A stretch of 47,406 nt of DNA from Candidatus Parvarchaeota archaeon (lineage in GTDB: Archaea > Nanobdellota > Nanobdellia > JAFCGN01). Where the stretch lies: NCBI GenBank assembly GCA_017609105.1, contig JAFCEQ010000001.1:1-47406 (forward strand), given 5' to 3'. Positions within the stretch are counted from its first letter, which is position 1. Every line of letters starts with the position of its first letter. Positions 380 through 39,862 of this stretch are shown piece after piece. The position numbers and the translations under genes are program-made. The notes under the pieces are model-generated. The model was not told where the DNA came from and searched no databases. It was given only the letters and a program-made list of their open reading frames with translations.

Positions 380-1126
380 ATGATGTTATTAAGCATGAAA
401 GTTGGAACAAACGATGTTAATACTTTTCTTAAAAGCGTTAGCTTGCTTGAAAAAGAAGGAATAAAAATAAACGGTTTTGAATTACAAGTATTAAAAAATG
501 ATTCTGTTGAGAGTGTTATGAAAGCTGTTGAAATAATAAGAGATAATTTTAAAGCAAGAATCCAAGGATTACACCCGCCGTTCCCTGCTTTTGCTGATAA
601 AAATTTTTTGAAATGGAAAAAAGTTTCTGAAGAATTAGGATTAAATTATATTGTTCTTCATGCTTCAATTAAAAAAAAGGATTTTTCCTTACTTCGCGAG
701 AGTGTTCAAGAATGCATTGGGGATTCAAGAAAAGTGTTTGTGGAGAACTTAACTTTTAATAAAAATCATTTAAGCGCGAATCTTCTTGAAACAACGCTTT
801 TATCTGAAAAAGTGTTGTTTGACATTCATCACACGATTTTTGATTATAAATACAGCGGGAGATTAAAAGTAAGTCCAATAGAACAAGTGAAGCTTGCTTT
901 AAATTCAATAGTTGCAGTGCATTGCGCTGATAGTGTTATGAAGGATGCTGTTATTCCAAAAAAAGGAGGAACAAGATTATTTAAGAACATAATGAAGATT
1001 TTATTTAATAAAAAAAATATTATTTATATAGCTGAACCGAAAAACGGGCATTTAAATAATTATGAAGGCCATGTTGAGACTTGCAGACAAGTATGGAAGT
1101 TATGGGAGAATATTAAAGACAATTAA
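380..1126 (+). CDS. TIM-barrel protein, AP endonuclease 2 / sugar isomerase superfamily
   Basis: A 248-residue protein with the strand-by-strand metal-ligand pattern of the xylose isomerase-like / endonuclease IV TIM barrel. Visible are GLHPP near residue 64, VLHAS near 92, VENLTF near 121, FDIHH near 146, VHCAD near 180 and a late AEP near 217. These would supply the His, Glu and Asp ligands of a divalent metal site. The superfamily includes sugar isomerases, epimerases and endonuclease IV, and the substrate cannot be told from sequence. Two adjacent ATG codons open the frame and either may be the start. It stands alone, with a convergent neighbour 14 bases after its stop. A much larger barrel of the same superfamily lies at 21765-23330. 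Confidence 0.75.
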   Translation: MMLLSMKVGTNDVNTFLKSVSLLEKEGIKINGFELQVLKNDSVESVMKAVEIIRDNFKARIQGLHPPFPAFADKNFLKWKKVSEELGLNYIVLHASIKKKDFSLLRESVQECIGDSRKVFVENLTFNKNHLSANLLETTLLSEKVLFDIHHTIFDYKYSGRLKVSPIEQVKLALNSIVAVHCADSVMKDAVIPKKGGTRLFKNIMKILFNKKNIIYIAEPKNGHLNNYEGHVETCRQVWKLWENIKDN

Positions 1127-4866: not shown

Positions 4867-5640
4867 TTAATCATATTCTCTTATGAATCTTAAAATGCTT
4901 TCTCTTATTTTTTTCCTGTCGGCTTCAAATAAAGTGCTATGCCCTGAATGTTTTAATATTAATTTTTTAATTCTTTTGGATTTAGAGTTCTCCTCAATTA
5001 TTTTAGGCGTGCTTATCCCGCCTAATTTGTCTTTTTTTGAATAAATCAAGAAAAGCGGTTGTTTAATGTATTTTAATCTTTTTTTCACATACTCCATGTA
5101 TTTTAGTACATCATGCAGGGTTTTAATAGAAATTTTTGAATACCTTTTGTGCTTGGAATAAAATTTGTGAATAGAAACAAGTTCATTAAAAGCGTGTAAT
5201 GGAACAAATTCTTTTAAATGTCCTTTGCTTAAAAGCAAAATTATTTTTTCTTCCCACTCCCCTACTTGAAGCGGGGATTTCATGATAATCCCTGCTGTTA
5301 TCCAAGTGTTTTTGCTAAGCAAATCTAATGCAATCATTCCGCCAAGGGAATGCCCAATAACAAAGATTTTTTTAAATCCCATTTTTTTAAGTGTTTTAAC
5401 TCCTTTTAAAGCTGATTTATAAAGGTCTTTCCTAATATTTTTTTTTCTTAAATCTTCAGGAGAAGTGCCGTGCCCTTCAAGCAAAACAGAATTAATAGTG
5501 ATACTATGATTGTTTAAGTATTCTGCAAAAGGTCTTAAAGTATAAGGCCCGCTTCCTAATCCATGAATCATTAAGCAAGCAGTAGTGCCTCCTGGAAGAA
5601 AATAAGGTTTATAAATATCATCAAGCAATTCTTTTACCAT
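4867..5640 (-). CDS. Alpha/beta hydrolase (carboxylesterase / monoglyceride lipase-like)
   Basis: A 257-residue serine hydrolase. The nucleophile elbow is GHSLGG near residue 97, the probable catalytic aspartate is in KKDKL near 204 and the histidine in HSGHST near 236. An oxyanion-hole segment, IHGLGSGP, lies near 26. The lid of about 50 residues between strands 6 and 7 resembles Est30-type carboxylesterases and monoacylglycerol lipases. The natural ester is unknown. No signal peptide is visible, so it is probably cytoplasmic. It is convergent with the ATPase gene and divergent from prefoldin alpha. Confidence 0.85.
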   Translation of the reverse strand: MVKELLDDIYKPYFLPGGTTACLMIHGLGSGPYTLRPFAEYLNNHSITINSVLLEGHGTSPEDLRKKNIRKDLYKSALKGVKTLKKMGFKKIFVIGHSLGGMIALDLLSKNTWITAGIIMKSPLQVGEWEEKIILLLSKGHLKEFVPLHAFNELVSIHKFYSKHKRYSKISIKTLHDVLKYMEYVKKRLKYIKQPLFLIYSKKDKLGGISTPKIIEENSKSKRIKKLILKHSGHSTLFEADRKKIRESILRFIREYD

Positions 5641-5735
5641 AAGAAATAATAAGTTCTTACTTAATTAAATAATTATTTAAGAATTCTTTTAAAAATTAAA
5701 AAAAAACTCAAATCCTTAGAAAGCATAAGAAAAAG

Positions 5736-5743
5736 ATTTAAAT
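5736..5743 (+). promoter_or_regulatory. TATA box of the prefoldin alpha-ftsY unit
   Basis: ATTTAAAT lies about 33-40 bases before the ATG at 5776. The expected transcript start near 5762-5766 leaves a very short leader that just includes AAGGTGA. Confidence 0.4.
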
Positions 5744-5775
5744 ACACTTCAAATATCTTTAACAAGGTGAAGAAA

Positions 5776-6222
5776 ATGGAATTGCCTGAAATTACTCCAG
5801 AATTACAAGAAAAACTCGCTGAGTTTGATTCTCTTAAACAACAATTAAATGCTGTTGAAAAAAACTTAGTTCAATTAGAACAAAAAAGGAATGAGTTAAG
5901 CTTTATTATTGATTCATTAAAATCAATTAAAGGGCAGAGCGGTGAGAAAATCCTTGTTCCAATTGGAAGCGGTGTTTTTGTTCAAGCTGTTTTAGAAAAA
6001 AGTGATAAACTACTTGTAGAAGTTGGTTCAGGAGTAGTATTAAAAAAAAGTCTTGAAGAAGCTCAAGAAATACTTGAAAAACAATCAGAAGAAATTAATA
6101 AAATACAGGTTAAGATGAGAGCTGACACTGATAAAATGATTGTTAAGTTAAGTGAGTTAGAACCTGAAATCATGTCTTTTTACCAAGAATTGCAGAAACC
6201 AAAAAAGAAATCAAAAAAATAA
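5776..6222 (+). CDS. pfdA: Prefoldin subunit alpha
   Basis: About 148 residues with the prefoldin alpha plan: an N-terminal helix (residues 8-50), a beta-hairpin region with VPIGSGVFVQA and VEVGSGVVLKK, then a C-terminal helix (90-140) forming the second half of the coiled coil. Two alpha and four beta subunits make the jellyfish-shaped chaperone that hands unfolded proteins to the thermosome. The beta subunit is encoded at 43157-43486. The track begins at a GTG nine bases upstream, which is better read as part of the AAGGTGA ribosome site; the ATG has the six-base spacing seen across this window. ftsY follows after 46 bases, a common archaeal order. Confidence 0.92.
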   Translation: MELPEITPELQEKLAEFDSLKQQLNAVEKNLVQLEQKRNELSFIIDSLKSIKGQSGEKILVPIGSGVFVQAVLEKSDKLLVEVGSGVVLKKSLEEAQEILEKQSEEINKIQVKMRADTDKMIVKLSELEPEIMSFYQELQKPKKKSKK

Positions 6223-6268
6223 TAAAAAAACAAAAATTTATTTATTCATTTTTTGTTAATGAAACATT

Positions 6269-7258
6269 ATGTTCAAGTTTTTAAAAAAGAAATTAAGCGA
6301 AAGCATAAACATTATTACGAGTGCTGAAAAAAAAACAAGAACTCGTAAAACAAGGATTCCTAAAAAGAAAGCTCAAGAAGAAAAGAGTATTGTTAAAAAA
6401 ATTATTAAGAAAGCAACAACGAAAAGGATTAGTGAAGAAGAAATTAACACTTTTCTGGAGAACCTTGAATTAACTTTTTTAGAGAATAATGTTGCTTATG
6501 AGGTTGTACAAAAAATAAGTTATGATTTAAGAGAAGAATTAATTGGTAGAGAGATTAAGAGAGCGCGTTCAAAAGAAAAAATTAAAGAATTAATCAAGGA
6601 AGTAGTAAGCTCTGTTTTATTAGAAGCAAGTGAGAAAGAATTAATTAATGAAATAAAAAAGTTCAAGCCATTCATAATATTGTTTGTTGGAATTAATGGA
6701 AGCGGGAAAACCACAACACTTGCTAAATTAGCGTATTATTTAAAGAAAAAAGGTTTTTCATGCGTTGCTTCAGCAAGCGATACTTTCAGAGCAGCAAGCA
6801 TAGAACAACTTGAGATTCATTCTAAAAAAGTTGGTTTTAAAGTAATAAAACATAATTATGGCAGTGATGCTGCAGCAGTAGCTTTTGATGCTGTGAAGCA
6901 CGCGCAAGCAAAAGGAATAGACGTGGTTTTAATTGATACAGCAGGAAGACAGCATAGTAATAAGAATCTTATGAATGAATTAGAAAAAATTAAGCGTGTG
7001 ATTAAACCGCATGTAACAATATTTGTTGGTGATTCCCTTGCAGGAAATGACGTGGTGATTCAAGCACAAGAATTCAATAATTTGATTGGCTTTGATTACA
7101 CGATTTTAACAAAAGCTGATGTTGATGAGAAAGGAGGGGCAATATTAAGCGCTTCTTATGTCACAAAAAAACCAATTCTCTTCTTAGGAACAGGACAAGA
7201 ATACCGTGATTTATCAAGTTTTAAAAAAGAAATGATAATCAAAAAATTATTAGAATAA
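6269..7258 (+). CDS. ftsY: Signal recognition particle receptor FtsY
   Basis: A 329-residue SRP receptor GTPase that docks SRP-ribosome complexes at the membrane. Residues 1-60 form a lysine-rich N-terminal segment likely to contact the membrane, followed by the helical N domain (60-130). The G domain shows G1 GINGSGKTTT near 143, DTFRAAS near 173, G3 DTAGRQ near 225, G4 TKAD near 282 and G5 GTGQ near 313. The long acidic A domain of bacterial FtsY is absent, as usual in archaea. It lies just downstream of prefoldin alpha and is probably cotranscribed with it. Confidence 0.95.
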   Translation: MFKFLKKKLSESINIITSAEKKTRTRKTRIPKKKAQEEKSIVKKIIKKATTKRISEEEINTFLENLELTFLENNVAYEVVQKISYDLREELIGREIKRARSKEKIKELIKEVVSSVLLEASEKELINEIKKFKPFIILFVGINGSGKTTTLAKLAYYLKKKGFSCVASASDTFRAASIEQLEIHSKKVGFKVIKHNYGSDAAAVAFDAVKHAQAKGIDVVLIDTAGRQHSNKNLMNELEKIKRVIKPHVTIFVGDSLAGNDVVIQAQEFNNLIGFDYTILTKADVDEKGGAILSASYVTKKPILFLGTGQEYRDLSSFKKEMIIKKLLE

Positions 7259-7364
7259 AAAAAACTTTGTTATAAGCAATAAAGTGTTATTAGGAATTTA
7301 TAGAAAACAATTTTTTTGAAAGAATATAAAAATAAAAAGTTCTTTTAATAAATTAAGATTAAAA

Positions 7365-7814
7365 ATGGGGTTATCTGAAGCACAAAAAAAAGCGTTATTG
7401 CTCTTCGCAGATAAGCTTAAAGAATTCCCTATTCAATGGGTTCTTGTAGGTTCAGCAAACTTAGCGCTTCAAGGAGTTAAAATAAATGTTAATGACATAA
7501 ATATTGCCACGAACAGTGATGACATCTATCATATAAGAAATATTTTCAGCGATTATTGTCTTGGAGAAATAATGAAATCTCAACAAGACCCTAATATTCT
7601 TCTTTGCAAACTCAAGATTTATGGAGTAAATATTCTTATTCTAGGTGATTCATCATCAAGGATATACACAAAGTATTTTGGAACACCATTAATAGAAAAA
7701 AGATATTTTTTTGGTGAGTGGATTCCTTGCTTGGATTTAGAGATTGAATTAAGAAATTACAGATTAGTAGGAATGAAAGACAAAATAGATATTTTAAAAG
7801 AATTTCTTAAATAA
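7365..7814 (+). CDS. Nucleotidyltransferase-fold protein with altered catalytic motif
   Basis: A 149-residue protein with the core of a polymerase-beta-type nucleotidyltransferase. VLVGSANLALQG near residue 26 matches the Gly-Ser motif, and VNDINIATNSDD near 42 lies where relatives carry DIDIQT. The second metal-binding aspartate is therefore Asn (D-I-N in place of D-x-D), which suggests reduced or lost transferase activity. A terminal segment, YRLVGMKDKIDILKEFL, matches the end of the archaeal family. It stands alone after ftsY. Short tandem repeats follow its stop. The substrate is unknown. Confidence 0.7.
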   Translation: MGLSEAQKKALLLFADKLKEFPIQWVLVGSANLALQGVKINVNDINIATNSDDIYHIRNIFSDYCLGEIMKSQQDPNILLCKLKIYGVNILILGDSSSRIYTKYFGTPLIEKRYFFGEWIPCLDLEIELRNYRLVGMKDKIDILKEFLK

Positions 7815-7830
7815 AAACTTAGAATTAAAA

Positions 7831-7885
7831 AGAGTGCCTAAAATTTTTAGAGTGCCTAAAATTTTTTAGAATACTTAAATTTTTT
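7831..7885. repeat. Short tandem repeat, about 18 bp x 2-3
   Basis: AGAGTGCCTAAAATTTTT occurs twice head to tail, followed by a decayed third copy (AGAATACTTAAATTTTTT). It lies between the nucleotidyltransferase and DEAD-box genes and has no coding potential I can see. The T-rich ends could serve as staggered terminators. Confidence 0.7.
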
Positions 7886-8007
7886 TGAACTCTTTACTCT
7901 TAGTCATTCCTTTCTCATAAACCTGCGTAATATTTTGTTTAACTAATTATTAAAAAAAAAATTATTTTCCAGAAACCCTTATAAATCAATCATTTTGCTT
8001 TAATGAA

Positions 8008-9249
8008 ATGAAGAAGAAAAAAATTTTGTTAAAACAAAAGAAGGATGAGAAATCGTTTGAAGAACTTGGTGTGAGCAAGAATTTAGTGTTTTCTTTAAAA
8101 AAACATAATATTTTATTTCCTACTAAAATTCAAATAAAAGCAATTCCATTTATAATGCAAGGAAGAGATGTTATGGCGCAATCAGAGACAGGAAGCGGAA
8201 AAACCCTTTCTTTCGCCATCCCTATTATTGAAAACCTTTCTCATAATTCTCAAATAAAAGCATTAATAATCGCTCCAACGCGAGAATTAGCAAAACAAAT
8301 AACAACGGAATTCATTAAATTCGGCAAATTCAAAAACTTGATAACAACAAGTGTTTATGGTGGCGTGAGTCTTGAAAATCAGGCAAGAAAAATAAAAACA
8401 TCAGACATTATTGTTGGAACACCAGGAAGATTGTTAGATTTAATTAACAGAGGAATGATGGATTTAAGTTATGTGAAATACCTTGTGCTTGATGAAGCAG
8501 ACAGAATGCTTGACATGGGTTTTATTGAAGACATAGACAAAATCTTAAGATTTATTCCAAAGAAAAAACAAACTCTTATGTTCAGTGCAACAATTAATGG
8601 AAAAATAATTGATTTAATGGAAAAGTATTTATGTAATCCTAAAAAAATAATGCTTGAGAATCAAATAAAAAAAGAAATTTTAAAACAAGTATATTACAAT
8701 GTTCCTGAAAACAAAAAATTGTCTTTGCTCATCCCAATTCTAAAAGAAAGAAAAAATGAATTAACACTAATTTTTTGCAATACTAAGAGAAAAACAAGGT
8801 TTGTTGCTGATGCTTTAAGGTTGAACGGGATTAGTGCTTCATGCCTTAATGGTGATATGACACAGCCTAAGCGTGAGAGAACAATAAATGATTTCGCGAG
8901 CGGCAGAATTAAAGTTTTAGTTGCTACAGATGTGGCAGCGCGAGGACTTGATATTGAGAATATTAAAACAGTAATTAATTATGACTTGCATGATGAATTA
9001 GAAACTTATACGCATAGGATTGGAAGGACTGGAAGGCAGGGCAGAAAAGGAACAGCAATAATTTTGCTTTGCGACAAGGATTATTGGAAGATGGACAGGA
9101 TTATAACAAAATACAGGAATAAAATTGAAGAAGCAGAAGCAAGGTTTGAGAGAATTAAGATTCCAAAAAAAACTTTTAGCAGAAGAACAAATCGTAATTT
9201 TAATAGAAACTTTAAAAAGAATTCTTTCAGAAAAACAAAGAAACATTAA
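8008..9249 (+). CDS. DEAD-box ATP-dependent RNA helicase
   Basis: A 413-residue superfamily 2 helicase with every core motif: I AQSETGSGKT near residue 57, Ia PTRELA, Ib TPGR near 138, II DEAD near 161, III SAT near 194, IV LIFCNT near 252, V ATDVAARGLD near 311 and VI HRIGRTGRQGR near 338. The C-terminal 40 residues are rich in Arg, Asn and Lys (RRTNRNFNRNF), typical of an RNA-binding tail. It likely remodels rRNA or mRNA structure at the ribosome. An earlier ATG at 8003 is out of frame. Transcribed alone. Confidence 0.95.
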   Translation: MKKKKILLKQKKDEKSFEELGVSKNLVFSLKKHNILFPTKIQIKAIPFIMQGRDVMAQSETGSGKTLSFAIPIIENLSHNSQIKALIIAPTRELAKQITTEFIKFGKFKNLITTSVYGGVSLENQARKIKTSDIIVGTPGRLLDLINRGMMDLSYVKYLVLDEADRMLDMGFIEDIDKILRFIPKKKQTLMFSATINGKIIDLMEKYLCNPKKIMLENQIKKEILKQVYYNVPENKKLSLLIPILKERKNELTLIFCNTKRKTRFVADALRLNGISASCLNGDMTQPKRERTINDFASGRIKVLVATDVAARGLDIENIKTVINYDLHDELETYTHRIGRTGRQGRKGTAIILLCDKDYWKMDRIITKYRNKIEEAEARFERIKIPKKTFSRRTNRNFNRNFKKNSFRKTKKH

Positions 9250-9287
9250 GAACTAACAGTAAATCACTTGAATTTTAAAAAAATTCT

Positions 9288-9725
9288 TTATGAGAATTCT
9301 TTTTCTAATTCTTTGATGAATTCTTTCTTTTCTTTAAGTGTTAAAGGCTTTTTCTTAAGTTTAATTTTTGGAGGAAAAACTCTTCTCTTCATTATTTTCC
9401 ATTGCAATAAAGGAGGTTGTCCAAAATCCAAATCCCCCACATATCTAGGATAAATGTGCCAATGCAAGTGTGGCTCCCAATTCCCAAAAAGCGCGAGATT
9501 CAGTTTATCTGCATTAAAAGATTTCTTAACAATTACAGCAACTTTATGCAAATCCCTTGCGAATTTCATGAAATCCTCTGTTTTTAGACCCAAAATGCTT
9601 GTTTTATGCTTTTTGTAAGCAACAATTATGTGTCCATGATGAGAAGAACTGCCTTCAAGAACATACGATGTTTCTGTTTCAAATAAAATACTTTCTTTGT
9701 TTAAATTACAAAACTTGCATTTCAT
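9288..9725 (-). CDS. HIT-family nucleotide hydrolase
   Basis: A 145-residue histidine-triad protein. The signature is HLHWHIYPR near residue 108. An N-terminal CKFC pair with a later HH could hold zinc, as in several HIT proteins. The family cleaves nucleoside phosphoramidates and dinucleoside polyphosphates; the exact substrate is unknown. The C-terminal 30 residues are lysine-rich (KRRVFPPKIKLKKKP), an extension beyond the usual fold. It is convergent with the DEAD-box helicase gene. A second HIT gene at 24890-25309 is clearly different in sequence. Confidence 0.88.
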   Translation of the reverse strand: MKCKFCNLNKESILFETETSYVLEGSSSHHGHIIVAYKKHKTSILGLKTEDFMKFARDLHKVAVIVKKSFNADKLNLALFGNWEPHLHWHIYPRYVGDLDFGQPPLLQWKIMKRRVFPPKIKLKKKPLTLKEKKEFIKELEKEFS

Positions 9726-9891
9726 ATTATTTGTAAAAAAATAAAGAAATTAAATATTTTATTAGAACAAAAACAAAAAAAGAACTTTTAATAAAAAATA
9801 GTTGAAATAATTATTAATGAGATGATTAATAAGATAATTTCAAAAAAATTATTCTAAAATTATTTAATCATTTAAATGCTTGTTTAATATT

Positions 9892-10380
9892 ATGATTGAA
9901 AATTTTATTAATGCAATAATTCCTTACTTAACTCCTCTTGGTTATCTTGGCGTGCTAATTTTAAGCGTGCTTGCTAATTCCACTGTTTTTATTATGATCC
10001 CAAGTCATGCAGTAATTTTTGCTTTAGGATACTCCTTTAATCCTTATTTACTTGGTATTTTTGGAGGGATTGGTGCAGGAATAGGTGAATTAACAAGTTA
10101 TTTTATTGGCATAGGAGGTAATAAACTTCTTGATTTAGAAAAAGATTATAAAACATGGGGTAAGTGGATTATTAAATTTAAAAAATTAATAAATAAGCAC
10201 GGGTTTTGGACAATAGTTGTTTTTAATGCAACTCCTTTGCCAACTGACTTAATTGCAATACTCGCGGGAAGTTATAATTTTGGTGTGAGAAGATTTTTAA
10301 TTGCTTCAATCATCGGAAAAATAATAAGTTACACTGCTATAGCTTTAGGAGCGAATAATTTCTTTAATTGGATATTATAA
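9892..10380 (+). CDS. VTT/DedA-like membrane protein
   Basis: About 162 residues with four or five hydrophobic helices. LGYLGVLILSVLANS near the start, then GAGIGELTSYFIG and VFNATPLPTDLIAILAG match the VTT (SNARE-associated, DedA/YqaA) pattern, including the Gly-rich re-entrant segments and the Pro-Leu-Pro near a membrane turn. VTT proteins are implicated in lipid scrambling or flipping in the membrane; the role here is inferred. The track starts at a TTG four codons earlier; the ATG at 9892 follows a TATTTAATCATTTAAAT promoter at a spacing that suggests a leaderless message. Confidence 0.8.
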   Translation: MIENFINAIIPYLTPLGYLGVLILSVLANSTVFIMIPSHAVIFALGYSFNPYLLGIFGGIGAGIGELTSYFIGIGGNKLLDLEKDYKTWGKWIIKFKKLINKHGFWTIVVFNATPLPTDLIAILAGSYNFGVRRFLIASIIGKIISYTAIALGANNFFNWIL

Positions 10381-10487
10381 AAAAAATTTAAACTATTCTA
10401 ACTAATTCTTAAAAAGAATAATTAAAAAAAATATTTTTTTGTTTATTATACTCTATGCGTAAAAATTTTATTTATTAACAATTTCTT

Positions 10488-10685
10488 TTACTTGCTTGCT
10501 TTTCTTTTTTTATTAACAGGTTTTTTAGCAAGAAAATTATAATCTCTTAATTTTTTAGATTTTCCAAAACCGCAACTCGCACAAACTTTTTTAGCAATGT
10601 GAAAGGAATGTTGACCACAACGCCTGCACCTTCTATGCGTGCCTGTCTTGCTTTTCTTGCCCATGCTTGGTGTTCCTTTACTCAT
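10488..10685 (-). CDS. rpl37e: Large-subunit ribosomal protein eL37 (L37e)
   Basis: A 65-residue zinc-finger ribosomal protein. It carries the GTPSMGKK start, [14 protein letters not shown] near 17-30 and CASCGFGKS near 36-44, which form the C-x2-C...C-x2-C zinc site, and a lysine-rich tail. eL37 packs against 23S rRNA. It follows the Sm-like gene after about 40 bases on the same strand, the conserved archaeal lsm-rpl37e pair. Confidence 0.96.
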
Positions 10686-19225: not shown

Positions 19226-20176
19226 ATGAAGGATATTTTGAATGAAGGAGAAAAATCACAGCAAGCAATAGGTTTTTTAAGTCAAATTGTTGAGAATAAA
19301 GAAGTTAAATTACAGAACGGGACTTCAATAAGATTTCAAAATGAATTCTTAAACAAAATCAGGAACTGGAATAATTTAAATCCAGCAGAAATGCTTGGTT
19401 TTATTAATACTTTCTTTAATGGAGTGGATACTTCAAAAGCACTTGGTTCAAGCGGTGCACTTTATTCAGATTTAAACAATCCTAATGATAATAATACAAT
19501 TAGAGACAATAATTCTGCAGTGAATAGTTATGTTGGTTTTTTTCTTAGAAATAATGAGGATGCTTTTAAAGGAATTGATAACTTAAATAACGCTATTAGA
19601 AATATTTTGACTCCAGAATCAGTATTAGAATTTTATTTAACAGGAAGGAGGATGGAAGTTAATGATAGTGATATTTATGGTTTCACGAATTTAGGAACAA
19701 CAAGAATTCTTTCAAATCCTGGAAATTACACGGATAAAACTCTTGATTGTTTAGTTGAACTACTTGAAGCTAATGACGCAAGCATTTACAGTAATGACCT
19801 TGATTTAAAAGATGATGTTAAAGCAATTATTTACACAAATGCTAAAGATTTTACATCAGTTGATAATGCATTGAACGCTTACCTTCCTGAAGGAGGTGCA
19901 AGCGGAATTTTAAGTGCTGCAGAACAGAATCAATTCAGGAATGATTTAGTTAAAATAATGAAAGCAAGAACTCCAGAAATTGTGAGTAAGAATTTCCCTA
20001 AAAAAAGCATTGATGACTTTTTAAACAATATACTAATAGATAAGAATGCTTTAAGTAACGCAAATGAGTACAATATAAGGGATTCTGCTTATGGAGGAGC
20101 AGGAGAGAGATTCAAGTATACAACAAATACTTTGAAAGTGTATGAAACAATAACTAAATTGAACGGAAGACAATAA
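19226..20176 (+). CDS. Hypothetical protein, 316 aa
   Basis: I do not recognise this protein. It is 316 residues, rich in Asn and Asp, without cysteines forming motifs, a signal peptide or membrane helices, and predicted to be mostly short helices, suggesting a helical-repeat scaffold. Start support is strong: GTGGTGG lies six bases before the ATG. It sits between two nucleotidyltransferase paralogues read on the other strand, is divergent from the first and convergent with the second, and is transcribed alone. Base composition matches the surroundings. Confidence 0.65.
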   Translation: MKDILNEGEKSQQAIGFLSQIVENKEVKLQNGTSIRFQNEFLNKIRNWNNLNPAEMLGFINTFFNGVDTSKALGSSGALYSDLNNPNDNNTIRDNNSAVNSYVGFFLRNNEDAFKGIDNLNNAIRNILTPESVLEFYLTGRRMEVNDSDIYGFTNLGTTRILSNPGNYTDKTLDCLVELLEANDASIYSNDLDLKDDVKAIIYTNAKDFTSVDNALNAYLPEGGASGILSAAEQNQFRNDLVKIMKARTPEIVSKNFPKKSIDDFLNNILIDKNALSNANEYNIRDSAYGGAGERFKYTTNTLKVYETITKLNGRQ

Positions 20177-23364: not shown

Positions 23365-24750
23365 CTAATCCAACCATTCTTTTTCAGCTGCAGGCCAAGT
23401 CTTGAACCCGAAAGGCTTTTTCGTATTATTATAAATACTCCAAGTTGTATCCCTAACTTCTTTAATAATCTCATCTGCTCCAAACATTTCATGTCCGAAC
23501 AATTTTGAAGAAAACCCTGATAAGGGTTTGGGTATTACTGCTTCTTCTTTTTTCTTTTCTTTCTTTTTTTTGAAAAAACTCTGAAATATTTCTCCAATAA
23601 ATGTTTGCGGTTCTTTTTTCTCTTCTTTTTTCTCTTCTTTCTTTTCTTCTTTAATGTTTAAACCCAAGTCCTCAAACATTTTTTCAACTTCATCTTTTTT
23701 CCAATCCTTATAAGCATGATAAAAAGCTTCGCTCGTGTAAACAAACGGTGTTAATCTTGTTTCAGTAAGAATGTATTGTGCAGGACTACTACCTCTTAAA
23801 ATAAAATCAGCTTTAATGACTTGAGCAAACGGCACAAGATGTTTTTTACCTTTGCTATCTTTAAAAGAATCTTGCCAAGATTTTTTATCTCCTTCTTTTG
23901 TTTTTGCTTTATATGCAACAACAACTACTTGAGAAAGAACAGTGCCTCCAATCTTCAATAAATTCGGATCAAATCTTAAATCCTGGTTCGGTGAATCTAA
24001 TTGCAATTCTTTAATGTTTTTTAACATTGGCTTAACCCATTCCTTATATAATTTAATGTTTTGTTTATGAGCTCTTATTCTTTCTTCAAGTATTTCTTTG
24101 AATTCTTCTAAAGATTTTTTCCATGTTTTTTTCCATTCTTGATATTCTCTTAATTTTCTTTTAACAAAATTCTTAACTCTTTCCGGAGCATTAATTTTAT
24201 CTATTTCTTCTTCACTATTCACTCTATAAAAAATATCGCGTGAAGTAAGGAATTGCAAGTTCTTTGTTGCTTGAGCAATACTCGCAGGACCTGATTTCGT
24301 GTCAACATAATCCGCCCAAATTCCTTTAAGAACGAGTTCATCAGGTTTTCCTTTTTTATCATAATAAGATAATGATTGAACAATTCTATCATAATCCTTT
24401 TTTATAGCAACATATGATTTATACATATCATTTATGAACTTCATTAATTGTGAAGCATCTTGTATTTGATAATGTATTTTCATTTGTTGATTCCCCCATT
24501 CTTGAGAACGTTGGCTCATTGAATACCAATCCACAATTTTCAACACATTAAACCCTCTTTGAATAAATTGGTCAACAACAGCAAAATAGAAGGGTTCTAA
24601 AGCAGCTCCTGCTTCATAAGCAAGAAGGTATGTTGGACCTTTCCACACACCATGTTTAATAACCTTTTTTTTCCCGTCCTCATCAGTGTAGGTAAAATCC
24701 TCAAATTTTTTAGGATAATAATAGTTTTTATTCTTAGGATATGCTGTCAT
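23365..24750 (-). CDS. Hypothetical lysine-rich protein, 461 aa, partner of the TIM-barrel gene
   Basis: I do not recognise this protein. Residues 1-100 are rich in Tyr, Trp and Phe (KNKNYYYPKKFEDFTYTD, GVWKGPTYLLAYEAG). Residues 195-250 form a long charged helix. Residues 260-360 look beta-rich (TVLSQVVVVAYKAKT, KADFILRGSSPAQYIL). Residues 370-410 are a Lys/Glu low-complexity linker with KKEEKKEEKKE, and a compact tail ends in WPAAEKEWLD. There is no signal peptide or membrane helix. It is the first gene of a two-gene unit, so a shared pathway or complex with the TIM-barrel protein is likely by context only. Confidence 0.65.
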   Translation of the reverse strand: MTAYPKNKNYYYPKKFEDFTYTDEDGKKKVIKHGVWKGPTYLLAYEAGAALEPFYFAVVDQFIQRGFNVLKIVDWYSMSQRSQEWGNQQMKIHYQIQDASQLMKFINDMYKSYVAIKKDYDRIVQSLSYYDKKGKPDELVLKGIWADYVDTKSGPASIAQATKNLQFLTSRDIFYRVNSEEEIDKINAPERVKNFVKRKLREYQEWKKTWKKSLEEFKEILEERIRAHKQNIKLYKEWVKPMLKNIKELQLDSPNQDLRFDPNLLKIGGTVLSQVVVVAYKAKTKEGDKKSWQDSFKDSKGKKHLVPFAQVIKADFILRGSSPAQYILTETRLTPFVYTSEAFYHAYKDWKKDEVEKMFEDLGLNIKEEKKEEKKEEKKEPQTFIGEIFQSFFKKKKEKKKEEAVIPKPLSGFSSKLFGHEMFGADEIIKEVRDTTWSIYNNTKKPFGFKTWPAAEKEWLD

Positions 24751-31646: not shown

Positions 31647-32951
31647 TTATGAGGATATTCCAAGATTTTCTTTCAAGTAATTTATGACATCTGCTAAAAA
31701 CATTTTCTCTTCTTTGCCTGAAATCATGTTCTTAACCACTACCTTGTTCTGTTTCATATCTTTTTCTCCAACAATAATAACAAAAAGTATTTTCTTATTA
31801 GACGCGTATTCAAATTGCTTGCTTAAACTCTTATTCATTAAATCATGTTCTGTTATTATTCCTGCTTGTCTAAGTGTTTGTGATAAAATTATTGCTTCAT
31901 CAAGCATTTTTTTATTTGTTGACGCTACAAACACTTGAGTAAGGCTTTTCTTTTTCTCAATTAATTTCTTTTCTTTCATTAAGGAGAAAAGCCTTTCTAT
32001 TCCAATACTAAACCCTATTGCTGGAATATCTTTCTTACCATATATTTTTAAGAGATTATCATACCTCCCTCCTCCTCCAAGAGAACCGTATTCTTTATTC
32101 GTGCTTTTTATCTCAAAAACAGGCCCAGTATAATATTCAAGTCCTCTAACTAAGCTCAAATTAAAAACAATCCTGTCTTGTAAATCATAAAATTTAAGCA
32201 ATCTATAAAGTTCTTCAAGCCTTTTCAACCCTTCATTATTAGGGTATTTCTTTTTTATTCTTTTTAAAACTGCTTTGAACGTGCCACTAATATTCATTAA
32301 TTCAAGAATTTTTTTAATAGTTCTTTCTCTTAAATCAAGTTTCTTTAATTCTTTTTCAACCCCTTCAACTCCAATCTTATCTAATTTATCTATTGCTCTA
32401 AAAACATTCACTATTTTTTCTTTAGGAACCCCCACATCTCTTATGATTTCATCTAATACTTCCCTATCATTCACTATTATCATGAAATCTTTGAATCCAA
32501 TATTCATTAAAGCCTCACTTGTGCATGCAATGCATTCTGCTTCAGCAGTAACTTCTTTAACCCCATATACATCAATATCTGACTGCCAGAATTCTCTGAA
32601 CCTTCCTTTTCCTGGACGATTATACCTCCAAACCTTATCAATGCAATATCTTTTGAAAGGCATTTTCATAGAAGTATTGTTTGCAACAACTCTTGCAGAA
32701 GGAACTGTTAAATCAAACCTTAATCCTAACTCCCTCCCGCTTTTATCTTTGAAATCATAAATTTCTTTTTTTACTTCATCACCACCACCGCCTTTCTTAG
32801 TAAGAATTTCTAAGTTCTCAAAAACAGGAGTGTTTAAAGGAACAAACCCATACTTTTCATAAGTTTTCCTTATAGTATTAACTAATTGATTGAATAAGAT
32901 CATGTCTTCAGGAAGGAAATCTCTTGTTCCGCGCGGAGTTAAATTTTCCAC
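31647..32951 (-). CDS. hisS: Histidyl-tRNA synthetase
   Basis: A 434-residue class II synthetase. Motif 1 is in the first 60 residues (RGTRDFLPEDM, then YGFVPLNTPVFE). Motif 2 is RVWRY-like in DKVWRYNRPGKGRFREFWQSD near 105-128. The histidine loops are LVRGLEYYTGPVFE near 266 and GGGGRYDNLL near 291, and motif 3 is AIGFSIGIERL near 313. The C-terminal 90 residues form the anticodon-binding domain. It attaches histidine to the tRNA-His encoded at 37698-37770. Confidence 0.96.
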   Translation of the reverse strand: MENLTPRGTRDFLPEDMILFNQLVNTIRKTYEKYGFVPLNTPVFENLEILTKKGGGGDEVKKEIYDFKDKSGRELGLRFDLTVPSARVVANNTSMKMPFKRYCIDKVWRYNRPGKGRFREFWQSDIDVYGVKEVTAEAECIACTSEALMNIGFKDFMIIVNDREVLDEIIRDVGVPKEKIVNVFRAIDKLDKIGVEGVEKELKKLDLRERTIKKILELMNISGTFKAVLKRIKKKYPNNEGLKRLEELYRLLKFYDLQDRIVFNLSLVRGLEYYTGPVFEIKSTNKEYGSLGGGGRYDNLLKIYGKKDIPAIGFSIGIERLFSLMKEKKLIEKKKSLTQVFVASTNKKMLDEAIILSQTLRQAGIITEHDLMNKSLSKQFEYASNKKILFVIIVGEKDMKQNKVVVKNMISGKEEKMFLADVINYLKENLGISS

Positions 32952-33130: not shown

Positions 33131-36100
33131 TTAAATGGTTACGCCTATGGCATGAATCATACCATTAAATAATACTTGAAGGAATTTAGGTATTTTTGTA
33201 ATTGAACCGAAAGGCTTAACTTTTACTTCTCCAACCATAATCATTCTTCCAACCTTACCTATGAATCCTGGTATTGCTTTAATAACTGCTGAAGGCCCTG
33301 TGCTATCTCTAAGCGTTCCTTCCCACCAATTCTTTAATTCCATAAGGGATTCAAACTTCACTTCTATGTACATGTTATCTGAAGATTCTCCTGCATTTTC
33401 TGCAATGTTCGTGTCAACCCATTTAATATAACCATCTTCTGTTCTAAAGCTTAATTCAAATATTGACTCATTTTCATATGTTAATCTTAAACTTGTTGTA
33501 ACATTACCCCATTCCATAATTGCTTGTTGTATTCCAGGTTGATTATCTAATTCAAGGTTTAAATTATAGATTGCATCATCAAGCACTCCGCTTTCTTTTG
33601 CTTCTTTAAACTTTTGTTTAAAATTATTAGCAATATTTTTCATCTCAGCAGGTGTTAAAGTAGTTCTAAGTCTTAATCTTGGCTTAAGCCCTTCAATACT
33701 TATTCTTTCTTCACCTGCGAATAAAGACCTATCTGTTCTAAATGTGTCTGAAAATATTTCTTGTGTTTCTTTTATCATTTCTTGTCTTGTTTCAAAAAGC
33801 ATTTGTTCTCTTTGTTCTTTCTCCTTCTCTATTTCTTTTAAATCTTCTTCAGTTAAAGACTCTTCTTTTAAGCTTTCATCATTAGCGTTTAATGTTTCTT
33901 TACTATAATCATTAGACTCTGAGTTAGAATAATCTTCTGCTCCTTGCAGGTTTAAGGAAACTTTTCCTGTAACCATTGGTGTTTTTTCTTGACTCCAATC
34001 ATTTCTTATTTCTTCTCTTGGACCTGTTTCCATCATCCCTCTTCTTTCTGCTAATGGAACATTTTGCATTGACTCGCCCACGCGTTTCTGCATTAAACCA
34101 ATTCCAATACCAAACCTATAAGTAAAGTCTCTTTCATAAAATTCTAAATTAACATGTTCTGTTTTTATTTTAATATTTACAGGAGACCAATCTGGAAAAG
34201 AATTATTGCTTACAGCAGCTAAATAAGCAACTTCAGTATCATAAGATTGAAGTTTAAAGTATAAGTTATTTATGAAATTCTTAAGTTCTGTTAAATTTAT
34301 TTTTCCATTTTCATAATCATTAACTTTGTTTTGTATTTCATCAAAACCCCCTATAATTTTTTCTCTTTTTTGAATAAGGTTTTCAAATCTTTTTGCGCTT
34401 TGAAGAGATTCATATTTTTTAAACGCTTCTTCTAATTTTGGTCTTAATTGCGGATTCCATTCTTTCCAAATAACATCTATTTGTAATTCAAATTCTGGAT
34501 TCTCTTCTTTTACAAAAAATGGTGAGAATTGTTTTTGAATTCTCACGAATAATTCAATATTATCATCAGAATAAATACTAACTCCTCTTAATTTATCACT
34601 CCACTCATCGTACTCATGGAATCCGCTTGCTTTTGCAATAACGACTTCCACAATTTTTTGATTTTCTGCTTTATCTAACAAATCATTAAGTTTATCTTTT
34701 TCTAATAAAATATTGTATTGGAATTCTGTAATATTTTCTCCATCAAAAGAACTTGCGAGTTTCTTTAAAGAATTTATTGAAACAACTAAGTCAGCAATTA
34801 ATTTTTGGTCTTCAAGAGAATAATTTGTTTCAGTATTCTTAATCAAATTAAGTTTGCCCTGTATCTTTTTTTCTTGTTTGATTTTCCAAAAGTCCTCATT
34901 CGCTCTTTTAATATCCTTCTTGACAAGCGTCCAATTCAACCAATTTATGTGCACATTCACACCACACCTTTTTTCTTCAAAAGGTTCATAATAGTAAAAA
35001 TTATTTTCTTCACACCAAGCATCAAGTCCTGTGAATACTTCTTGTTTTGTAAAGCTTTTTTCAACTAATGCTCTCCAATTCCCTATGTTAATTTCATCCT
35101 CTTCAAAATTCATCCAAATATCTCCTGGTGGAATATTTTCTCCTAAATCAACCACGATAAGATAATCTTTTGTATTCTCATCAACAACAAAATCTTTTAA
35201 AGTATCAACTGTTTGAAGACGTTTTATTTCTAAATCATAAGCGCTTATGCTTCCTGCCTTATATTTTTCAAAAGCACTAACATACTCTTTCAATGAATTA
35301 ATAACAACATCTGTATTATTCACTTTGTCTTCAAGAGATTCTAAAGCTTTTTTCGCAAGCCAAATCCTTCTTGCTTTATCTGCTTGAATCCATCCTTCTT
35401 TTTCAGCATTTTTGACAACATCTTTAAATTCTTTCCTATATTTTCCGCCAGCCCATAAATCAAATCCAGTTCTATCATTATATTCATCAATCCACATGTT
35501 AAAGTTGATTTCCACGTTCTCGCTTCTGAAAATTTGCAAATGATTACCAACTTCTACTTCTTCCATATTATTTATCCAAACATCAGGCATGCCAGGTCCG
35601 TAAAGAAGAACGTATTTACCAATATTTTCAGCAATATCAGGGTAACTCATCGCAAGTCCTTCTAATTCAGAACGAATAAGAATAACATTATAAGTTAAAT
35701 TGTATGCTTTTTCTTTTGAAGAATTTTTTTCAAACTCCAGTGCTTCATTCCTGATTGTCTCAAGTTTTGTTATTATCTGCTTTCCTATTGTTTCTTCTTC
35801 TACTGTGAAATTTACTAATTGTCTTGCTTTTAATAATAAATTATGTCTTCTTAATTTTTCAGCTTCAAATAATGAATCTTTTCTTGCTTCCTTAATCACA
35901 TTCTTTTGTTCATCTGTTATGATTGGTTTCCATCTTAGTTCAACATTCATTCCTCCTTTTTCTTCTAAATCAAAATCCTGGCAACCCCAACTATTTATTT
36001 CAAACTTAAAATAATCGTTTTCTAAAAGAAATTTATGATTGCCTAAAACAGTATCTCCAAAATCATCTTTCCAAATATCTGGAGTGCCGTACTTTGTATA

Positions 36101-37597
36101 AAGGATTACGTAATCCCTAATTTGAGTAAAATCATCGCAATTAAAAGCATCTCCTATTCCTTCAAATTTTGCTCTTAATAATTGTGATTTGTATTCAGCA
36201 TCATAAAAGTTTTCAATTCTTGAGGGATCAAAATCTTTTAATTCCTCTGAAAAATCATCTATTTCTTCAACAATCGTTTGCGCTGTTTCTAATAAATCGC
36301 TTTCTATTTCAAAAGAATCCATAAACTCTTTAATCGCGCCTGCTCGTTCTGCTTTTCTTGCTTCAATATCTGCATCTCTTCTTGCTTTCTTAATTTCTTC
36401 TTTATAAGCTTCTGCTGTTGAACCCCAATTCACATCCAACCATGCAAAAGTTTTTCCTTCCACATCATCATAATTGCAATCAAAATTTATTTCAACATTA
36501 TCTCCTTTGTAATAAACCCTTCCTAAATGCGTTTCTCCAAACTCATTCTGCCAAACATCCAAATCATAATTTAAATTCTTTTTAACATAATCACAAGCAT
36601 TTTTTAAATCAGTGCTGTCTTTAGTATCTGAAAAACCGCGCAATGTTGCTTCAGAAATTGTAGAATTATATGCTAAAGCATATGCTGAGCTTTTTGAAGG
36701 ACTTTTATCATAGTTCTCTCCTAATTCAAAAATTGGTTTAACAATACTTATTATTTCATCTCCTAATTCTTCTTGTGATGATGAAACACTTATGCTCATC
36801 TCAGAAAGTAATTTCTCTTGTCTTTGCTCATCCTCCCATCTCCTATAATCTTCATCAGCTTGCCTTACTTGGTCTTCATTCATGCCTCCATACTGTTCCC
36901 AATTTATCCAAAAACCTGCCCAAATCTCATCTTTACTTGTCGGAGCCCTGTCTGTTGGATTTATGTTAAACCCTAACTTGTCTCTAATTATCATTTTATC
37001 AAAATTAAGTTGAATATTTCCAGAATCATCAATCCAATAATTTGGTTCTCCAGGAGTGTAAAGAAGCAAGTAATCCACTACTCTTTTCCAATCATTCAAA
37101 CTTATTCCAACTAAGTTTCCTAATTCTTCTTTTATGTAATATTGGTCTTTCATACAAGAGTATTGAATATCATATTGATTGTTTTCTTTTGCTTTGCTTT
37201 CACAATCTTCCACATAATTAATTACATTACTTACAATATTTTTATAATTATCAGGCAATGTTAAAGAAGACTTATATGTTTCTAAATTACCAATTCCTTC
37301 ATCAACAATTCCTTCATCGTGAATGCCTATTGTTTCATTAGTTATTGTTTCAGTGCTTGTTGTATTCTCTCCAGGTAATTCTGCTCCTTCAGAAGATTCT
37401 GTTTCTATTACAACATCACCTGAACCTTCAATATCTCCTGTTGAAGAATCATCATCAATTGTTTTAGAAGTGCTGTCAATTGTTTTAGAAGTGCTGTTAT
37501 CTATGCTCGTAGTCGTTGTATTGCCTTCTGCATTAACATAAGGAAAAGTTGAAAACAATAAGATTAACGTAATAAATAGTGCACTCCAGTTTTTCAC
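33131..37597 (-). CDS. Giant secreted repeat protein, 1488 aa
   Basis: By far the largest gene here. Residues 1-23 are a signal peptide (LFITLILLFSTFPYVNA). Residues 25-115 are a Ser/Thr/Glu linker with SKTID duplicated, open to glycosylation. Residues 115-1140 hold about seven diverged units: a helical half, then a strand half with an aromatic landmark (PNYW, LDVW, PDIW, PDVW, GDIW, YDEW, FPDW) at W188, 349, 509, 674, 828, 999 and 1137. NVEINF, WAGFW and ARRDADIEARKAER-like helices recur. A charged coiled segment follows (1215-1290), then a mixed C-terminal domain (1300-1488) ending in a hydrophobic stretch but no clear anchor. I recognise no known domain. Surface layer, adhesin or envelope scaffold roles are guesses. 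Transcribed alone. Confidence 0.8.
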   Translation of the reverse strand: MKNWSALFITLILLFSTFPYVNAEGNTTTTSIDNSTSKTIDSTSKTIDDDSSTGDIEGSGDVVIETESSEGAELPGENTTSTETITNETIGIHDEGIVDEGIGNLETYKSSLTLPDNYKNIVSNVINYVEDCESKAKENNQYDIQYSCMKDQYYIKEELGNLVGISLNDWKRVVDYLLLYTPGEPNYWIDDSGNIQLNFDKMIIRDKLGFNINPTDRAPTSKDEIWAGFWINWEQYGGMNEDQVRQADEDYRRWEDEQRQEKLLSEMSISVSSSQEELGDEIISIVKPIFELGENYDKSPSKSSAYALAYNSTISEATLRGFSDTKDSTDLKNACDYVKKNLNYDLDVWQNEFGETHLGRVYYKGDNVEINFDCNYDDVEGKTFAWLDVNWGSTAEAYKEEIKKARRDADIEARKAERAGAIKEFMDSFEIESDLLETAQTIVEEIDDFSEELKDFDPSRIENFYDAEYKSQLLRAKFEGIGDAFNCDDFTQIRDYVILYTKYGTPDIWKDDFGDTVLGNHKFLLENDYFKFEINSWGCQDFDLEEKGGMNVELRWKPIITDEQKNVIKEARKDSLFEAEKLRRHNLLLKARQLVNFTVEEETIGKQIITKLETIRNEALEFEKNSSKEKAYNLTYNVILIRSELEGLAMSYPDIAENIGKYVLLYGPGMPDVWINNMEEVEVGNHLQIFRSENVEINFNMWIDEYNDRTGFDLWAGGKYRKEFKDVVKNAEKEGWIQADKARRIWLAKKALESLEDKVNNTDVVINSLKEYVSAFEKYKAGSISAYDLEIKRLQTVDTLKDFVVDENTKDYLIVVDLGENIPPGDIWMNFEEDEINIGNWRALVEKSFTKQEVFTGLDAWCEENNFYYYEPFEEKRCGVNVHINWLNWTLVKKDIKRANEDFWKIKQEKKIQGKLNLIKNTETNYSLEDQKLIADLVVSINSLKKLASSFDGENITEFQYNILLEKDKLNDLLDKAENQKIVEVVIAKASGFHEYDEWSDKLRGVSIYSDDNIELFVRIQKQFSPFFVKEENPEFELQIDVIWKEWNPQLRPKLEEAFKKYESLQSAKRFENLIQKREKIIGGFDEIQNKVNDYENGKINLTELKNFINNLYFKLQSYDTEVAYLAAVSNNSFPDWSPVNIKIKTEHVNLEFYERDFTYRFGIGIGLMQKRVGESMQNVPLAERRGMMETGPREEIRNDWSQEKTPMVTGKVSLNLQGAEDYSNSESNDYSKETLNANDESLKEESLTEEDLKEIEKEKEQREQMLFETRQEMIKETQEIFSDTFRTDRSLFAGEERISIEGLKPRLRLRTTLTPAEMKNIANNFKQKFKEAKESGVLDDAIYNLNLELDNQPGIQQAIMEWGNVTTSLRLTYENESIFELSFRTEDGYIKWVDTNIAENAGESSDNMYIEVKFESLMELKNWWEGTLRDSTGPSAVIKAIPGFIGKVGRMIMVGEVKVKPFGSITKIPKFLQVLFNGMIHAIGVTI

Positions 37598-37697: not shown

Positions 37698-37770
37698 GGC
37701 CGATGTAGCGTAATGGTTAGCGCACCAGGTTGTGGCCCTGGAGGACCGGGTTCGATTCCCGGCTTCGGCC
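37698..37770 (+). tRNA. tRNA-His (GTG)
   Basis: A full cloverleaf. The anticodon arm CCAGG-TTGTGGC-CCTGG gives anticodon GTG. The T arm is CCGGG-TTCGATT-CCCGG. The gene encodes G-1 (37698) opposite discriminator C73, the pair that marks tRNA-His. T8 and A9 are in place. The acceptor stem GCCGATG / CTTCGGC has a T-T mismatch at position 6-67. CCA is not encoded. Confidence 0.95.
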
Positions 37771-37853
37771 CTTTCCTAAATTTTGAAAACTTTTGGAAAT
37801 AAAAGAAGAACTCCATTAAAGTTTTAAACAAGAACTTTCTTTGAAAGAAATTA

Positions 37854-38423: not shown

Positions 38424-39086
38424 ATGCATAATCCTTTTACTTATATCACGCCAAGGGAGAATGAAGAAATAATTGATAGAATAAATGTTTATAATAGGCT
38501 TGAAAAAAAAATTTTGGACACATTAATTCAAGGAACAATAATTTTTCTTGAAGGAGATTATGGAAGCGGTAAATCTCTTTTAGTTCAAAAATTAAAGAAA
38601 AACTTAGGTAATAAGATTAAAATCATAACTCTTGATTTCACAGGCATGATTTTAAATGACTTGCGAAAACTGCCTTTAGAAAAAAAAAGAGAAATCTTAG
38701 TTGTGATTGATAGATTTGATTTAAGCGAAGGATTAAGTAAAGAAAATTTTGAAAAACTGCTTGATTTAATTCTTGAATTAAAAAACAGGGGTTTATCTTT
38801 CTTATTGCTTCTTAATAATAAAACAACAAAAGCAATAAAAAAAGCAAAAAGCAGATTAAAAAAAGAGTATAGTATAATTAGAATACCTGCTCTTGATTAT
38901 AAATTTTCTAAGGAATTAATTATTTCTCGTTTGAATGAAATAAGAAAGAGTAAGAATGAAAGTCTTGAACCTTTTACTGAAAAAGAAATTAAGGAGGTTT
39001 GGCGTAATAGTAAGGGCAATCCTAGAATGTTGCTTCTCTTATGCGAGAACTTGTTTGAAAGAAAAATGAAAGAGGCAAGAAAGTGA
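38424..39086 (+). CDS. Small AAA-type P-loop ATPase
   Basis: A 220-residue ATPase. Walker A is EGDYGSGKSLL near residue 44, Walker B is ILVVIDRFD near 91 with Arg after the Asp where Glu is usual, and the end holds a helical lid with GNPRMLLLLCENLF, as in ORC/Cdc6 or KAP-like clades. The altered Walker B may weaken hydrolysis. It overlaps the following presenilin-like gene by four bases (GTGA), a sign of coupled translation and a shared job. It lacks a DNA-binding winged helix, so it is not a replication initiator. Confidence 0.72.
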   Translation: MHNPFTYITPRENEEIIDRINVYNRLEKKILDTLIQGTIIFLEGDYGSGKSLLVQKLKKNLGNKIKIITLDFTGMILNDLRKLPLEKKREILVVIDRFDLSEGLSKENFEKLLDLILELKNRGLSFLLLLNNKTTKAIKKAKSRLKKEYSIIRIPALDYKFSKELIISRLNEIRKSKNESLEPFTEKEIKEVWRNSKGNPRMLLLLCENLFERKMKEARK

Positions 39087-39862
39087 AATATTCTAAAACA
39101 ACAATAATAATGTTTTTGAGTTTGTTTTTATTCGCAGAATTATTTGGATTATTCGTGAACAAGCAATACTTTAAAAAAGAGCTTCCTTATGGATTGGAAC
39201 CAACAAAAACAGAATTCAGTGTTGGGTATCTTTTAAGCGGCATAATTGTTTTTACTATAATCTATTTTTTGTTGTTAAAACTGAAAATAAATTATGTTGT
39301 TAAATTATGGTATGTTCTTGCAGTTTTTTTGTGCTCATTAATTACTTTAAACAGTTTTATGGATTCTTTTCTTGCTTTAATAAGTGCTTTCATTCTTGTG
39401 ATATTGAAGTTAAGCAATAAATTTGGCATTGTTTTTCATGATATTAGTGAAGTGATTGTTTATGCTGGTGTTGTTCCTTTGTTCAGTCCATTGTTTAATA
39501 TGGCTGGAATCATTATTTTAATGGTTTTTTTGAGTATTTATGATATAATAAGTGTTTTTGGCACTAAACACATGATTAAATTAGTTAAATCTCAGCAAAA
39601 ATTAAAAATATTTGCTGGATTAATTGTCAGGTATAAGGATGAAAATGCGCTTTTAGGCGGGGGGGATGTTATTTTTCCTGTTTTGTTCGCAAGTGTTGTA
39701 AGCACTCATATTGGTTTTCTTCAAGCAATTTTAAGTATTTATGGTGCTGCAGTTGGTTTATTGTTTTTGGTTTTAGTTGGTAAAAAAGGAAAATTTTATC
39801 CAGCAATTCCTTTTATTGCTGCAGGAGAATTCATTTTTTTTATTTTAAGCTTATTACTTTAA
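39083..39862 (+). CDS. Presenilin/signal peptide peptidase-like intramembrane aspartyl protease
   Basis: A 259-residue polytopic membrane protein with about nine helices. The three hallmarks are in order: YD in SIYDIIS near residue 153, GxGD in LLGGGDVIFP near 192, and a PAL-like segment PAIPFIAAG near 239. This is the presenilin/SPP (A22, archaeal DUF1119-type) pattern; the two aspartates would cut peptide bonds within the membrane. It starts on GTG inside the stop of the ATPase gene. A 14-bp duplication spans its stop codon. Confidence 0.82.
   Translation: MKYSKTTIIMFLSLFLFAELFGLFVNKQYFKKELPYGLEPTKTEFSVGYLLSGIIVFTIIYFLLLKLKINYVVKLWYVLAVFLCSLITLNSFMDSFLALISAFILVILKLSNKFGIVFHDISEVIVYAGVVPLFSPLFNMAGIIILMVFLSIYDIISVFGTKHMIKLVKSQQKLKIFAGLIVRYKDENALLGGGDVIFPVLFASVVSTHIGFLQAILSIYGAAVGLLFLVLVGKKGKFYPAIPFIAAGEFIFFILSLLL

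Follow-up and report, generated by a model that had tools for sequence, protein, structure and literature searches.

Many small-genome archaea of the DPANN type live attached to hosts (PMC11329633), and nanohaloarchaea, which belong to DPANN, have giant surface proteins, SPEARE among them, that are large, exported and multi-domain and thought to be active at cell contact (PMC9563170). The protein described here resembles them in being a large, exported, multi-domain product of a small-genome DPANN archaeon. SPEARE proteins, however, are far larger, with protease, adhesion and endonuclease domains that can be recognised; no Pfam domain of these three kinds was found in our protein. Archaeal S-layer proteins of the SlaA/SlaB type are likewise exported, large, single copy and built of many units; no sequence relation to them was found for our protein, which has a patchy distribution and a unit fold unmatched in the PDB. 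A third point of reference is given by adhesin arrays, which gain, lose and homogenise repeats, whereas the array studied here is old and its order fixed. Repeat-built surface proteins are a known kind, and what is new here is the domain family of the unit.

Gene, orthologues and overall architecture

The gene lies in a 47,406-nucleotide stretch of Candidatus Parvarchaeota DNA that was analysed as a whole (the window); its source genome measures 688 kb in 49 contigs, is 92% complete and holds the gene in single copy. The carrier is a tiny, probably host-dependent archaeon. The first-pass annotation had called a 1488-residue frame here; the frame stands, with its strand corrected to minus and its start placed at the GTG given in Table 1, since the plus strand across the same interval is full of stops. 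Because orthologues of similar length occur in four other genomes, we regard the gene as real. These are 67% (L004), 36% (L005), 38% (L006) and 36% (L007) identical to the window protein; L004 comes from the same genus (genome G001, JAFCGN010000010.1, Candidatus Parvarchaeota archaeon Meg22_810_Bin_165), and the orthologues together span several families of the same archaeal class. With the window genome counted, full-length relatives were found in five of the 378 sampled genomes of the class; in all, 5 to 6 of these genomes (∼1 to 2%) have the protein, so it is no general envelope part. No relative of note was found in viral contigs, phage records or PHROGs.

Table 1. Features of the repeat protein and of its flanking genes, with positions in the window
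Feature	Residues	Position	Strand	Basis or remark
Whole coding sequence	1488 aa	33131..37597	minus	GTG start at 37597; orthologues L004, L005, L006, L007 full-length
Signal-peptide-like segment, MKNWSALFITLILLFSTFPYVNA	1-23	37529..37597	minus	Highest hydropathy peak of the protein
Variable N-terminal region, Ser/Thr/Asp/Glu-rich	24-104	37286..37528	minus	Orthologue comparison
Unit 1 (U1)	105-262	36812..37285	minus	Profile homology
Unit 2 (U2)	263-423	36329..36811	minus	Shuffles and profile homology
Unit 3 (U3)	424-587	35837..36328	minus	Profile homology; C487/C539 pair
Unit 4 (U4)	588-747	35357..35836	minus	AlphaFold2 model
U4 model helices	599-624, 628-651, 656-666		minus	AlphaFold2
U4 model strands	670-675 (PDVW landmark), 681-691, 696-704 (NVEINFNMW), 709-717		minus	AlphaFold2
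U4 final helix, runs into unit 5	725-751 (model 140-166)		minus	AlphaFold2
Unit 5 (U5)	748-907	34877..35356	minus	Profile homology; C862/C878 pair
Unit 6 (U6), distant copy	908-1070	34388..34876	minus	Joint-profile score above shuffles
Supposed unit 7 (U7), FPDW	1071-1180	34058..34387	minus	Conserved in family; repeat membership unsupported
Acidic linker, poorly conserved	1181-1295	33713..34057	minus	14-17% identity to other-family orthologues
C-terminal domain	1296-1488	33134..33712	minus	Best-conserved part
tRNA-His		37699-37771	plus	Flanks repeat gene; same arrangement in L004
Histidyl-tRNA synthetase		31647-32951	minus	Flanks repeat gene; same arrangement in L004
Signal-peptide-peptidase/presenilin homologue		39083-39862	plus	PF06550, E 1.5e-9, above cut-off

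All five orthologous proteins begin with a signal-like hydrophobic peak, judged by hydropathy and N-terminal pattern, and by hydropathy none of the five has a further segment of transmembrane strength; the signal-like segment holds no lipobox. In the window protein, a Ser/Thr-rich stretch follows, as the first-pass annotation had described, and its proposal of an exported, multi-domain protein is supported. The region after the signal varies by lineage, with a weak match to bacterial Ig-like domains in L004 and Cys-rich CGDGxC modules in L005 to L007. The protein is acidic along its whole length, and the linker before the C-terminal domain carries a net charge of −10 to −16. Large size, single copy, export, acidity, many units and the 17 N-glycosylation sequons of the window copy would all suit an S-layer protein whose units tile the surface and whose C-terminal domain anchors the lattice. 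We nevertheless consider this reading unlikely, given how few of the sampled class genomes carry the gene, the fall in sequon number to 1 to 7 in other families and the absence of any known S-layer domain from the Pfam and NCBIfam matches.

The repeat units and their fold

The seven aromatic landmarks and their spacings were found as the first-pass annotation had listed them (residues 185, 346, 506, 671, 825, 996 and 1134), and the self-comparison it proposed shows U1 to U5 repeating far beyond chance. For most pairs of these units the signal is clear even without profiles: single-sequence shuffles gave Z values of ∼14 (U1-U3), ∼10 (U1-U4), ∼15 (U2-U3), ∼18 (U2-U4), ∼17 (U3-U4) and ∼8 (U3-U5), and hhalign comparison of orthologue-built profiles gave E-values among U1 to U5 from 2.4e-5 (U3-U5) to 7.7e-32 (U3-U4), each for a single comparison and with unit boundaries set from the landmarks. 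For U1 to U5 this concern about boundaries and E-values is reduced by the shuffles and by an independent genome profile search, which recovered five units of the window protein (E-values of 9e-54 to 4e-40), these units being part of the search profile. U6 is a distant copy: the joint U1-U5 profile aligns with it over 135 columns in full register, landmark tryptophan on landmark tryptophan, and scores 31.6 against a maximum of 19.8 in 60 column shuffles. The earlier estimate of about seven copies is thus revised to five certain copies and one distant copy. The seventh is doubtful, since U7, with its FPDW at 1134, scores 18.8 against shuffle maxima of 17.9 to 19.3; it is possibly a truncated copy. 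An apparent match between U6 and U7 proved to be an artefact of 13 residues common to both at the chosen boundary.

In a tree of 28 units, units 1 to 6 each form a clade that spans every genome in which the unit occurs (support 0.84 to 1.0), and mean identity is 38% for same-position units between species versus 18% for different positions. Units group by position and not by species, so the array predates the split of the lineages and has kept its order since; the same clustering in five genomes indicates a set architecture under selection. Part of the interest of the unit family lies in this fixed order, which several families of very small archaea have kept. Unit 1 is missing from L006 and L007, where a Cys-rich stretch occupies its place. 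Leaving these Cys-rich modules aside, units 1 to 6 contain either no cysteine or two per unit per orthologue, with one exception (three in L004). The pairs C487/C539 in unit 3 and C862/C878 in unit 5 are invariant in the five orthologues, and the pair of unit 2 has been lost together in L006 and L007. Intra-unit disulfides of a protein outside the cell would be expected to leave this pattern of pairs.

The AlphaFold2 model of U4, for which the input alignment comprised ten units from the window protein and L004, reached a mean pLDDT of 92.3 and a pTM of 0.85. It consists of three helices, a four-stranded meander and a 27-residue helix (Table 1). The landmark, strand and charged helix seen in the first-pass annotation find their places in the model, PDVW being strand 1, NVEINF lying in strand 3 and the charged helix leading to the next unit. 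Profile homology among U1 to U5 implies one fold for all five. Searched with Foldseek against the PDB and BFVD (viral models), the U4 model had no match at an E-value of 0.001 or below, and the best listed matches had TM-scores of ∼0.13 to 0.24 by query length. Searches of the repeat protein against Pfam, NCBIfam, PHROGs and PDB sequences gave no family above cut-off, so the earlier finding of no known domain holds in these four collections, and the match to a named domain that would have told against a new family was looked for and is absent. The suggestion of a new domain family is borne out: the unit represents a domain family not described before, and its confidently modelled fold has no solved relative in the PDB and no viral predicted one in BFVD; we claim this lack of relatives in the two collections and not a new fold.

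Several weak matches were set aside. Matches of the unit profile to HIV gp41 (E-values of 0.05 to 1.4) reflect chance similarity of a Trp-rich helix; the Pfam matches to SAS-6_N, Thi_PPkinase_C and Dicty_CTDC fall below cut-off and are not believed. Weak unit-profile matches in four further genomes (G189, G224, G236 and G415) are spurious, and three of them were traced to genes for an M16-like peptidase, a Tat-signal lipoprotein-like protein and a coiled-coil protein.

The C-terminal domain and its faint resemblance to SCP2

The C-terminal domain, which the first-pass annotation had missed, is separate from the units, and no homology between it and the repeat units was found. Its identity to other families is 48 to 53%, compared with 24 to 46% for units 2 to 6. 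It contains invariant polar residues and tryptophan, a feature that would be in keeping with an enzyme or effector that is secreted and targets other cells; we hold this to be very improbable, as no catalytic family was found and aromatic or structural residues account for most invariant positions of the units. Homologous domains also occur as independent small proteins with a signal-like N-terminus (L008, L014, L015, L016 and L085 to L087; profile E-value 1.3e-13) and end an otherwise different, Cys-rich secreted protein of 1809 residues (L084; 1.1e-6). These proteins share the C-terminal domain with the window protein and lack the repeat units. A further candidate member, L017 (G288), was rejected for an internal stop. 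The L084 protein (5193-10622, minus strand) is signal-like and very rich in cysteine, and has zero Pfam matches. In several genomes, an SMC-like chromosome-segregation gene adjoins the stand-alone domain genes (L008, L014, L015, L085, L086 and L087). The C-terminal domain, which small secreted proteins share, is another uncharacterised family, the second in this protein, and its structure deserves to be solved.

Inspected by eye, its elements come in the SCP2 order: four strands, helices, a strand of the form G-x-[IV]-x-[IV]-x-P-F and a helix. The C-terminal family profile scores 20.3 to 24.5 against SCP2, above shuffle maxima of 16.8 to 17.1, and the match starts in an equivalent place. The comparison with SCP2 (PF02036) concerns the C-terminal domain, and the likeness lies in the apparent order of secondary structure and in a weak profile score above shuffles. 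The SCP2 family is cytosolic, whereas the domain of the window protein is exported and lies below every family threshold. On this likeness, and on small secreted proteins of the class with sub-threshold SCP2 matches, one could build a secreted lipid-binding or lipid-transfer protein, in which the C-terminal domain is a far SCP2 relative, the lipids come perhaps from the host and the units serve as a spacer. We find such a role doubtful: no member reaches the gathering score of Pfam SCP2, a PDB profile search with the domain returned no SCP2 chain, the profile-profile probability is 2 to 16%, and the AlphaFold2 model of the domain, from a two-row alignment, has a pLDDT of 33, too low for fold comparison. 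Since no SCP2 threshold was reached and the model is of low confidence, the lipid idea is kept as a lead. Its more elaborate form, a lipid-acquisition device on the surface of a host-dependent archaeon, in which a new-fold rod bearing a far-diverged exported SCP2-like domain would take lipids from another cell or exchange them with it, appears more doubtful still. L051 (1447-2172, minus strand) and L052 (1132-1758, plus strand) encode small proteins with signal-like starts whose SCP2 matches stay below threshold, and which may belong to exported SCP2-like families of this class; weak SCP2 matches in L050 and L065 are RNA polymerase subunits.

Proposed role and genomic context

The protein is exported, long and modular, it occurs in small-genome DPANN-type archaea, and its N-termini are lineage-specific. 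Such a makeup is compatible with a host-binding adhesin whose units or N-terminal modules bind surface glycans or proteins of the host. We judge this rather unlikely, given that no binding domain was recognised and that, against a fast-evolving array, unit positions are conserved across families and conservation is highest in the C-terminal domain. Our tentative preference goes to an exported, rigid, rod-like cell-surface protein with the C-terminal domain at the envelope and the N-terminus displayed, a reading favoured by the contrast between lineage-specific N-terminal modules and the most conserved C-terminal domain. It is favoured as well by the signal-like start with no second transmembrane-like segment, the homology of the units, the U4 model with its final helix extending to the next unit, the paired cysteines, the clustering of units by position, and the occurrence of the C-terminal domain at the end of another large secreted protein (L084). 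To extrapolate from the model of one unit and from the linker helices, the units would stack end to end via their common helices, forming a rod that is acidic and stiffened by disulfides. Hydrophobic helices are part of the conserved C-terminal domain, which would hold this rod at the archaeon's own envelope, either at the membrane surface or on a conserved partner, and the variable N-terminus (Ser/Thr-rich, Ig-like or Cys-rich) would face outwards, where its contacts may be with the outer surface layer, with cells nearby or with a host. No anchor motif was found in the repeat protein, so it could also be freely secreted. If it is a surface rod, it would offer a handle, through one gene, an antibody target and a structure, on how outer surfaces are built and cells make contact in organisms that are hardly cultivated.

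The genomic context differs among loci. In the window and in L004, the gene faces tRNA-His, histidyl-tRNA synthetase lies downstream on the same strand, and a presenilin-family gene is found ∼1.5 kb upstream on the opposite strand. In L006 and L007, a protein that appears rhomboid-like by eye is encoded downstream, and the neighbourhood in L005 has neither the histidyl-tRNA synthetase/presenilin set nor a rhomboid-like gene. With no neighbour conserved at all loci, context leaves the function unsettled. Elsewhere in the window, three genes (1141-2196, minus; 19226-20176, plus; 23365-24750, minus) encode proteins of 316 to 461 residues without a Pfam match at an E-value of 0.01 or below. Beside the presenilin-family gene lies a gene for a KAP-like P-loop NTPase (38424-39086, plus strand), and both are conserved in L004.
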